NCBI RefSeq assembly: GCF_028687635.1
Contig: NZ_JAQTZS010000025.1
Location: 1 to 45,353 of the forward strand
From: Malikia sp.
GTDB lineage: Bacteria > Pseudomonadota > Gammaproteobacteria > Burkholderiales > Burkholderiaceae_C
Length of the DNA: 45,353 bases
Direction: 5' to 3'
Position numbers and translations under genes: made by a program. The notes below the pieces were generated by a model that saw only the letters and a list, made by a program, of their open reading frames with translations, was not told where the DNA came from and did not search any database. Shown piece by piece: positions 29,611-32,430 of this stretch (within the stretch, counting starts at the first letter, position 1; every line of letters starts with the position of its first letter).

Positions 29611-32430
29611 TTACAGCACCACGTTGACCAGACGGCCCGGCACCACGATCACCTTCTTCGGTGTCGCGCCTTCGGCCTGCTTGCGGACCGGCTCGCTGGC
29701 GACGGCAGCCGCCTCGATCGCGGCCTTGTCGGCGCTGGCCGGCACCAGGATGGAGCCGCGCAGCTTGCCGTTGATCTGCAGCATCAGCTCGATCTCGTCC
29801 TGCACCAGCGCGAGCGGATCAACCCGGGGCCAGGGCGCGTCGAGCAGCTCGCCGAGCTCGCTGGCGTAGCCGAGCCCGCTCCAGAGCTGGTGCGTGATGT
29901 GCGGCGTCGCCGGGTACAGGCAGCGCAGCAGGATGCCGAAGCCTTCGATCAGCGCGACCTGGCCGCCGGCCGTGGCGTCGGCATCGAAGCCTTCGAGCGC
30001 ATTGAGCATCTTCATCGCGCCCGAGACCACGGTGTTGTACTGCATGCGCTGGTAGTCGTAGTCCACCTGCTTGAGCACGGTGTGCAGCTCGCGGCGCAGC
30101 GCCTTGGCTTCCTTGCCAAAGGCCACATCGTTGAGCTGGCCGGCCTGCGCCGCGCTCTCGGTCGCCTGGGCCCAGTCGGTGCGCGACAGCTTGTAGCCGA
30201 AGTTCCAGACCCGGCGCAGGAAGCGGTAGCTGCCCTCGACGGCGGCATCGTTCCACTCCAGCGTCGCCTCGGGCGGCGCGGTGAACATGGTGTAGAGGCG
30301 CGCGGTGTCGGCGCCGTATTTCTCGATCAGGTCCTGCGGATCGACGCCGTTGTTCTTGGACTTGGACATGGTGCCCACGCCCTCGTAGTCGATCGCGGTG
30401 CCGACCGGCAGCAGGCCGTCGGCGCTGTCGACCGCGTTCTTGAGCTGGGCGCCGACGATCTTGCCGCCCTCGTCGAGCAGATGCTCGACGTCATGCGGCC
30501 AGAAATATTCCTTGGCACCCTTCTCGGTGCGGCGGGAATAGATGTGGTTCAGCACCATGCCCTGGGTCAGCAGCTTCTTGAACGGCTCGTCGACCTTGAC
30601 CAGGCCCAGGTCGCGCATGACCTTGGTCCAGAAGCGCGCGTAGAGCAGGTGCAGGATCGCGTGCTCGATGCCGCCGATGTACTGGTCCATCGGCATCCAG
30701 TAGTCGGCGCCCTCGGCCACCATCGCGTCGGCGTTCTTCGGATCGCAGTAGCGCATGAAATACCAGGACGAATCCACGAAGGTGTCCATGGTGTCGGTCT
30801 CGCGCCGCGCCGCCGCGCCGCAGATCGGGCAGGTCACGCCGGCGTGGAAGCCCTCGTGCTTGACCAGCGGGTTGCCGCTGCCGTCCGGCACGCAGTCCTC
30901 GGGCAACACGACCGGCAGGTCCTGCTCGGGCAGCGGCACCGAGCCGTGCTGGGCACAGTGGATGATCGGGATCGGCGTGCCCCAGTAGCGCTGGCGGCTG
31001 ATGCCCCAGTCGCGCAGGCGGAAGGTGGTCTTCTTCTCGCCCAGGCCCTTGGCGGCCAGCAGCGCGGCGACCTGGTCGACCGCAGCCTGGTAGGGCAGGC
31101 CGTCGAGCGCGCCGGAATTCACGCACACCAGCGCGCCAGTCTTGTCGGCGTACCAGTCCTGCCAGCGGGTGTCATCGAACGCCTTGGAGCCAGACGGGGC
31201 CGAAGCGGCCAGACCGCCGCGCTCCTCAGTCACAAGCTCCGATTCGTCGCGCGGCGGCCTGACCACTCCATCCCCTGCGCCCTGGCTCGACGCCGCCGGA
31301 GCCACCCCCACCACCTGCTTGATCTCGATGTCGTATTTCAGCGCGAACGCGAAGTCGCGCTCGTCATGCGCCGGCACGCCCATCACGGCGCCGTCGCCAT
31401 AGCTCATCAGCACATAGTTGCCGACCCAGACCGGCACCTGTTCGCCGGTCAGCGGATGGGTCACGAGCAGGCCGGTCGGCATGCCCTTCTTCTCCTGGGT
31501 CGCGAGTTCGGCCTCGGTCGTGCCGCCCTGCTTGCATTCCTCCAGGAAGGCCGCCAGCGCCGGATTCGTCTCCGCCGCGTGCAGCGCCAGCGGGTGCTCG
31601 GCCGCCACGGCGCAGAAGGTCACGCCCATGATGGTGTCGGCGCGCGTGGTGAACACGTAGAGGTGGCCGTCCTGGATCGGGTTGCCGTCATGGCCACGGA
31701 TCTGGTGCGGGAAGGCGAAGCGCACGCCGCTGCTCTTGCCGATCCAGTTCTCCTGCATCAGGCGCACCTTGTCGGGCCAGCCGTCGAGCGTCGCCCGCTC
31801 GTTGCCGAGCTGCACATGCTGCAGCAGCTCCTCGGCATAGGAGGTGATGTTGAGGTAGTAGCCCGGGATCTCGCGCTTCTCGACCGGCGCGCCGGTGCGC
31901 CAGCCGCGACCGTCGATCACCTGCTCGTTGGCCAGCACGGTCTGGTCCACCGGGTCCCAGTTCACGACCTGGGTCTTGCGGTAGGCGATGCCCTTTTCGA
32001 GCATCTTGAGGAACAGCCACTGGTTCCACTTGTAGTACTCGGGCTGGCAGGTCGCGATCTCGCGCGACCAGTCGACCGCCAGTCCCATCGCCTGCATCTG
32101 CTGCTTCATGTAGGCGATGTTCGAGTAGGTCCACTGCGCCGGCGGCACCTTGTTCTTGAGCGCCGCGTTCTCGGCCGGCAGGCCGAAGGCGTCCCAGCCC
32201 ATCGGCATCAGGACGTTGTAGCCCTGCATGCGCAGCTGGCGCGTCAGCATGTCGTTGATCGTGTAGTTGCGCACATGGCCCATGTGCAGCTTGCCGCTCG
32301 GGTACGGCAGCATCGAGCAGGCGTAGTACTTGGGCTTGCTGCCGTCCTCGCTCACGCGGTAGGCGTCGGACGCCGTCCAGTGGGCATGCGCGGCGCGTTC
32401 GATCTCTTGGTGCTGGTATTTGTCTTGCAT
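29611..32430 (-). CDS. leuS: Leucyl-tRNA synthetase with an insertion in the editing domain
   Basis: A 939-residue class I synthetase. The HIGH-type motif is [15 protein letters not shown] (residues 43-57), the CP1 editing domain spans about 220-430, and the KMSKS loop is [12 protein letters not shown]. Editing residues ([21 protein letters not shown]) are present. Typical LeuRS is about 870-880 aa; the excess is largely an in-frame insertion at about residues 376-415 between IEIKQVV and [10 protein letters not shown], rich in Gly, Ala, Ser and charged residues (see the repeat entry). The reading frame is intact, so the enzyme is probably functional. Confidence 0.96.
31186..31305. repeat. Palindromic element inserted in frame in leuS
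   Basis: About 120 bp (40 codons) interrupt the conserved CP1 domain of leuS. Inside it, GGCCAGACCGCCGCGC (31207-31222) and GCGCGGCGGCCTGACC (31249-31264) form an inverted repeat, 14 of 16 bases complementary, with a 26-nt loop. The length keeps the frame open. This looks like a small palindromic interspersed repeat that can settle within genes; no second copy was seen in this window. Confidence 0.6.

Follow-up and report, generated by a model that had tools for sequence, protein, structure and literature searches.

The leuS gene of Malikia sp., which codes for leucyl-tRNA synthetase (LeuRS), contains an extra segment within the part encoding the CP1 editing domain, and this segment includes an inverted repeat. 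The question raised by the locus is whether the segment is an ordinary loop of the protein or a copy of a repeat that has entered the gene. An earlier note on this DNA, made from the sequence alone, took it for a palindromic element comparable to those of Rickettsia (RPE). The window analyzed here is the whole stretch of 45,353 nucleotides (contig NZ_JAQTZS010000025.1). The features of the locus, in positions of the window, are as follows:

29611..32430, minus strand: leuS, leucyl-tRNA synthetase, 939 aa, intact reading frame (ORF, TIGR00396, 6q89)
31186..31305, minus strand: extra segment of the CP1 editing domain, between IKQVV and AFDDTRW, ~36-38 residues beyond short-loop relatives
31207..31264, minus strand: palindromic hairpin element, 77.9 bits with model R1 and 68.5 bits with model R2
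31249..31270, minus strand: 5' arm as read on the coding strand; the DNA fold has 22 bp including G.T pairs, with 4 bp more at 31272-31275
31201..31222, minus strand: 3' arm on the coding strand, with 4 bp more at 31196-31199
31223..31248, minus strand: conserved 26-nt core GACGAATCGGAGCTTGTGACTGAGGA, encoding DESELVTEE together with the next base, with tandem G.A steps and tip pair C-G

Extra Segment in the LeuRS Protein

The leuS product matches the bacterial LeuRS model TIGR00396 with 1011 bits, the match being split into two stretches. Residues 1-377 and 414-938 of the query meet at residue 373 of the 6q89 chain (N. gonorrhoeae LeuRS); therefore, 36 residues, 378-413, are inserted. This bears out the in-frame extra segment of the earlier note, where it had been put at about 40 residues. 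The motif MSKSK and one further LeuRS motif are retained in the protein. The loop, counted from KY to the G..K.T.RLRDW motif, has 97 residues here and 59 residues in 60 of 117 loci, a set in which 17 loci were left unmeasured by the expression and some loci overlap. Among the 113 rows of the LeuRS tree set, the short loop was found in 88. The AlphaFold2 model of this LeuRS is poor (mean pLDDT 54.9, pTM 0.41; 27 close sequences in the alignment), and in it the insert is a low-confidence segment, 379-414 (blocks of 26-27), as are many other segments. By default, the insert is most likely a tolerated surface loop without an adaptive role.

A plain alternative is an ordinary, lineage-specific, low-complexity loop of LeuRS in which the inverted repeat arose by chance from GC-rich codons. 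Such a loop would be in line with the leuS loop being highly variable across the bacterial family and with the 10 of 113 rows that have long loops without any element of the hairpin family. The folding of the DNA also bears on this point.

Hairpin in leuS

The inverted repeat given in the earlier note, 31207-31222 and 31249-31264, is present exactly there with 14 of 16 positions matching, and both mismatches can form G.T pairs on the coding strand. Longer and weaker arms were found by a repeat tool (31196-31222 and 31249-31275, 27 nt, 78%). In DNA folding of the 58-nt element, the coding strand gave z = -2.56 (3 of 200 shuffles as good) and the other strand z = -1.43 (13 of 200). The whole 120-nt stretch reached just z = -1.22 (24 of 200), as an ordinary loop might. 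The single leuS copy folds only moderately better than its shuffles and is therefore weak evidence taken alone; the hairpin is held to be beyond chance because of the family-wide covariation of the arms and the scan for the core motif.

Conserved Core and Paired Arms

BLASTn of the segment against its own genome, the check proposed in the earlier note, returned the query itself and nothing else at E <= 0.001. As a check this was misleading. The single-copy reading was overturned by a covariance model, with which 8 copies were found in the same genome. BLAST misses further copies because the arms differ between sites and little beyond the ~26-nt core is conserved. At a loose threshold, the best other match in this genome among the 40 matches listed had an E-value of 0.14 over 19 bases. 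This place (L003) and L149 have no such hairpin by eye, and L150 to L153 are probably chance matches.

Across 399 genomes of the bacterial family, BLAST found a match in 13. The hits have in common a core of 26-27 nt, GACGAATCGGAGCTTGTGACTGAGGA(G), and their arms differ between copies yet are complementary within each copy. One hit (L147) is located outside leuS, within a uvrA gene. Alignment A1 consists of 15 copies without internal gaps; L148, a leuS copy, was excluded for its poorly paired arms. In A1, 91.2% of the cells of the hairpin are paired, both sides have changed in 18 of 20 pairs, and covariation is 0.662. Shuffled alignments gave 0.187, none of 500 reaching the observed value, and slid controls did not exceed 0.147. 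Alignment A3, with 111 rows of which 95 are distinct, retains L148 and includes four rows that are the reverse strand of included copies. It is 92.8% paired with a covariation of 0.756 versus 0.185 shuffled, figures biased in that direction since its rows were found by the model. The stem has 16 pairs in A1 and in A3, and the arms around the tip are ~14 to 36 bp long, depending on the site.

A scan with the core motif only was made over 1.52 Mb of fetched DNA, enriched for the element. It gave 226 contexts, 119 of them with pairing at 12 or more of the 14 arm positions, a level reached by ~2.5% of randomly re-paired arms. The tip pair, which is free in the expression, was C-G in 95, G-C in 21, and T-A in 3 of these 119 matches; among the 98 poorly paired matches (9 or fewer paired), it was Watson-Crick in just 20. 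Because the expression itself demands the inner G.A letters, conservation of the inner tandem G.A/A.G was counted in the alignments, where it is kept in 14 of 15 copies of A1 and in 89 of the 91 distinct rows of A3 with letters there. The outer G.A step is more variable (G.A with A.G in 63 of 95). The commonest tip is 5'-GACGATTT...ATGAGGA-3' with a small apical stem, and the variant GACGAATC...ACTGAGGA was found in leuS of the genus of Malikia.

The same core in other genes and genomes, the dispersed copies with paired arms, and the strong covariation of the arms all argue against an ordinary loop with a chance repeat, and we regard that explanation as barely credible.

As a separate observation, a core variant, AATCAGAGCC, was found at three sites of genome G100, namely murD, murF, and one more (L260, L262). 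It was not seen among the G282 and G205 copies compared, a pattern that would fit an exchange of sequence among the copies of one genome.

Distribution and Copy Number

Model R1 (E <= 0.001; 13 candidates scored per genome) detected the element in 45 of the 399 family genomes, belonging to 23 of 141 genera. Model R2, with up to 150 candidates scored in each of ten carrier genomes, gave 115 copies in total, from 7 to 21 per genome. Beyond the family, R2 matched 3 of 300 genomes of the order, two of them within the same family and one weak, and 1 of 274 genomes of the class, which is the own genome; both searches used strict filters, with 17-19 candidates scored per genome. In 80 named leuS loci (638 kb), R2 found 7 copies, all inside the leuS loop. 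The exact core pattern was not found in viral contigs.

The earlier note had held that conservation of the segment in all close relatives, together with lack of other genomic copies, would make it an ordinary lineage-specific loop. Of four species of the same genus, G001, G003, and G004 have the leuS element and G002 is without it, and the 8 copies detected by the covariance model run counter to the second point, so that neither part of this argument holds.

Among copies with a neighbor within 400 bp (n = 29), the arrangement was '-+' in 26, '++' in 2, '--' in 1, and '+-' in none. Such close pairs in inverted orientation are what is found in REP dimers.

Two side observations concern the surroundings of the copies. 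At the paired copies L236-L241 and L272-L274, located between ORFs in G107 and G285, two recurring types of outer flank were seen by eye, one with AGCGAGCCCAG followed by an A-rich part and the other CTCCGGAGAG-like, as if each pair were two subclasses joined. Additionally, several contigs end at the hairpin or within ~70 bases of it (C78 and C141 of G001; C45, C49, C64, C87, and C88 of G205; C93 of G004; C32 of G002). Hairpins may break draft assemblies, and copies may be undercounted for this reason.

Copies Inside Genes

In-frame copies were found in leuS, uvrA, murD, murF, an hrpA-type gene, an ntrC-like gene, a formate-dehydrogenase-type gene, and the tail of gyrA. In the own genome, one copy is in frame in leuS and two in a giant uvrA ORF of 2145 aa with two UvrA-type stretches. 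The five other copies of this genome were left out of the in-gene counts: for the copies in L186, L187, and L256, the surrounding open frames gave neither a Pfam (1e-5) nor an NCBIfam (1e-30) match, and the L257 copy precedes a DbpA-like helicase domain at a place where the start codon is uncertain. Genomes G282 and G100 have copies in leuS, murD, murF, uvrA, and a gene for an ntrC-like regulator, and G282 also in the gyrA tail. The carrier genes of G107 are uvrA, an hrpA-type helicase gene, and a formate-dehydrogenase-alpha-type gene. The assignment of the last one (L242) as nuoG was rejected, as the best match of this partial frame is to formate dehydrogenase alpha, with 429 bits, short of the cut-off. 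Several copies are located in uvrA of G003, G001, and G133.

Large uvrA ORFs were seen at L185:729-7166, L192:2696-9445, and L190:2845-9864, coding for 2145, 2249, and 2340 aa. In every one of these ORFs, a single frame holds two UvrA-type stretches, and several elements lie inside.

All 23 in-gene copies tested, from 24 listed copies with L155 skipped, use one reading phase per orientation. The encoded peptide is DES..TEE-like in copies oriented with the gene and SS..SS.SS-like in those against it. Fourteen further-scored leuS copies, three of them already among the 23, agree on the phase, as does L099, which was read by hand. In the core of the own leuS, stops occur in the other two forward frames. 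The reverse strand is open in all three frames, but a single one of them is used. Turning the core over about the axis of the hairpin would keep the reading phase.

A hairpin with a conserved internal motif and covarying arms could also be a structured RNA acting in the mRNA, through stability, translational pausing, or protein binding. Against this, one and the same gene can have the element in either orientation, and most of the other G107 copies are located between ORFs in convergent and same-direction arrangements, according to ORF prediction. Moreover, none of the 11 Rfam matches at E <= 1 obtained from 15 loci reached the gathering score of its family, and all were to microRNA families. 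A role as structured RNA is accordingly considered very unlikely.

Location within genes is best explained by tolerance: in-frame copies sit in linkers and loops of core proteins that accept them.

Changes at Orthologous Sites

Arm pairs were compared at 18 orthologous sites, and 97 of the 528 pairs differ, in 33 comparisons that share species, with orthology taken from long flanking matches and, for leuS, from kinship. Both sides have changed with pairing kept in 65 of the 97, and one side has changed with pairing kept in 22. Pairing was broken by a one-sided change in 7, and 3 changed on both sides without pairing.

The orientation of the core itself can differ between species at one site. 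In leuS, it is inverted in G000 and G003 relative to G001 and G004, and this inversion among species of one genus also speaks against an ordinary loop of the protein. Between G100 and G282, the core is inverted at murD, murF, and uvrA (3 of 5 shared sites). Between G282 and its closer relative G205, it is inverted at none of 6 shared sites, a count that sets aside a second, opposite G205 copy at leuS and apparently also one at murD (across two contig ends).

The leuS loop has been altered repeatedly. On the LeuRS tree of 113 rows, from which L066 is absent (the motif was not found there), the short-loop state changes 16 times, and at least 13 of these changes are forced by starred branches (quick method). 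All these comparisons are across species, with one genome per species. Sister rows that differ in loop state are L105/L106, L082/L088, L076/L094, L081/L078, and, less surely, G000/G002. Between the filled loop of G001 and the empty loop of G002, the net difference is 54 nt, and the edges are marked by GGCC and GACC; by the tree, loss in G002 is the likelier direction. L082 and L088 differ by one 60-nt block, with GCA at the edges and a separate 6 nt in the opposite direction. Comparison of L105 with L106 gave no clean edge.

Other repeats were observed in the same loop. A second palindrome type with long arms and the core GGCACGGGNNATACCCTNACGCC was found in leuS of L070, L041, and L036, L041 (G012) having two copies in opposite orientation. 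This type is rare, being present at 6 places in 4 of 299 genomes of the family with one mismatch allowed. A third type, in leuS of G033 (L037), encodes HSELVEG, a peptide that we take to be known from widespread bacterial repeats.

The kept tip and the patchy occurrence bear on the possibility that the element is a DNA site owned by the host, recognized by a nucleoid, replication, or repair protein and kept for its function. The tip is conserved across different genes and in both orientations, copy number is low (7-21), and the polarity of pairs is fixed, all of which would be expected of such a site. Its presence in 23 of 141 genera and the single sites that are filled or empty between sister rows are not, and a host-owned site is judged unlikely.

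We consider it likely that the leuS insert belongs to a dispersed family of short palindromic elements, REP-like and non-autonomous, whose copies lie both between genes and in frame within them.

Comparison with Known Repeats

The Rickettsia elements are in-frame palindromes located in unrelated protein genes and tolerated by the protein, as is the case here (Ogata et al., 2000, 2002, as presented in PMC6649704). The likeness to RPE drawn in the earlier note is largely right, in that the element is in frame, coding, and has other genomic copies. The correspondence is drawn as one of kind, not of descent: the hairpin is in frame in a conserved gene and occurs in several genes per genome (G282, G100). 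According to the account in PMC6649704, the Rickettsia elements lose repeat identity over time. The arms of the leuS-type hairpin, unlike these, change together, a distinction drawn from the description given there.

REPs are likewise short palindromes, often in inverted pairs, that also occur within ORFs, and the carriers of intragenic REPs listed in PMC3733652 include uvrA, uvrB, tRNA synthetase, and RNA helicase genes. Intragenic REPs in uvrA and tRNA synthetases being already described, this kind of element is therefore known. In the portion of PMC3733652 used here, GTAG and CGTC REPs are described as having an unpaired tag at one end and stems of 5-13 or 8-9 bp; in the CGTC type, the tag is outside a stem of 8-9 bp, with a loop of 4-5 and a tail CCA. 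The family analyzed here differs from that description in having longer, site-variable stems and an internal conserved part and in lacking a common outer tag. In the 30-nt flanks of 61 copies, GTAG was found in 7 left and 3 right flanks, which is about chance. CGTC was found in 5 left and 10 right flanks, next to a stem of 16 pairs. What is distinct in this family is the lack of a common GTAG or CGTC tag, the long, site-specific, co-changing arms, and the internal conserved tip.

REPs moved by a REP-associated tyrosine transposase (RAYT) would share with this family the small palindromes, the inverted orientation of close pairs (26 of 29), and the location both between and inside genes, as in the REPs of PMC3733652, and a Y1 gene (PF01797) was found in 9 of 12 carriers tested. 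Besides the chance-level GTAG and the longer stems, the distribution of the transposase argues the other way: Y1_Tnp is absent from the carriers G282, G100, and G205, which have 11, 8, and 13 copies, and present in 4 of 4 tested genomes without an R1 match (G007, G008, G014, and G022). Movement by RAYT is consequently thought quite unlikely, and in G282, G100, and G205 a Y1 transposase is not the recognizer of the tip, unless it has since been lost.

The ~90 bp BRE of Betaproteobacteria, including Comamonadaceae, has some copies wholly within coding sequence; it was found by >70% identity, often in tandem, in Bordetella and Delftia (PMC3110155). BRE and the hairpin family were compared by the description in that source alone, and the two may overlap. 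In nematomorph mitochondria, inverted repeats in coding sequences show concerted evolution of their arms, for which template switching was proposed; these palindromes are mitochondrial, have repeats of up to 284 bp, and are without a common core in the description available (PMC6649704). Template switching at imperfect inverted repeats is reported from E. coli and yeast in the parts consulted of PMC7202029 and PMC3820800.

The inverted cores also have a parallel in plastids. Small hairpin-loop inversions, in which the loop between inverted arms flips in place, occur in chloroplast DNA, and they resemble the inverted cores found here in the turnover of a loop in place. To our knowledge, they do not form a dispersed repeat family. 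The earlier note knew of no named family for the element, and no prior description of this hairpin family turned up among open-licence papers. New relative to that note are the co-changing arms, the two core orientations per site, the recurrent change of the leuS loop, and the other carrier genes.

Proposed Mechanism

As far as sequence comparison goes, it establishes dispersal, in-frame location, arm covariation, inverted cores, and recurrent change of the leuS loop. The family is most likely a selfish, mobile repeat of the REP/RPE kind, almost confined to one bacterial family. Hairpin-templated strand switching during replication would keep the arms of each copy matched, and the same strand switching could turn the core over in place, as the comparison of orthologous sites suggests. 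Template switching leaves the strong conservation of the tip unexplained; therefore, a recognizer is likely. A recombinase or a host DNA-binding factor may recognize the tip as single-stranded or cruciform DNA, and the tip would be kept for this reason; a conserved function of the DNA could be an alternative cause. Short direct repeats at the edges of the hairpin would allow the element to be lost by deletion between them.

A more speculative version, which we regard as doubtful, is that the element is inherited as a ~26-nt tip that folds back on arrival and copies the adjacent target as its arms, strand switching later matching the arms and turning the tip over. Comparison of L082 with L088 shows that the empty site already contains the outer part of the right arm, GCACCCGCCGA, whose inverted copy closely resembles the left arm (10 of 12, by eye). 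In the other clear filled and empty pair, G001 versus G002, the inner arm is without such a target-derived pattern, and this version had been rated somewhat less doubtful before it was marked down because one of the two clear pairs is unsupportive. We know of no described element that spreads as a tip building its arms from the target.

Conclusions

On the preferred reading, a dispersed and probably mobile palindromic repeat, the leuS insert belongs to a family that is largely missed by similarity searches and has entered essential genes without breaking them. Co-changed arms at orthologous sites, together with inverted cores, offer a record, left by nature, of how hairpins template mutation in bacteria. 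The leuS loop offers a site for following gain, loss, and inversion between close strains, and an extra loop in a conserved enzyme of this clade may stem from repeat DNA and not from adaptation.
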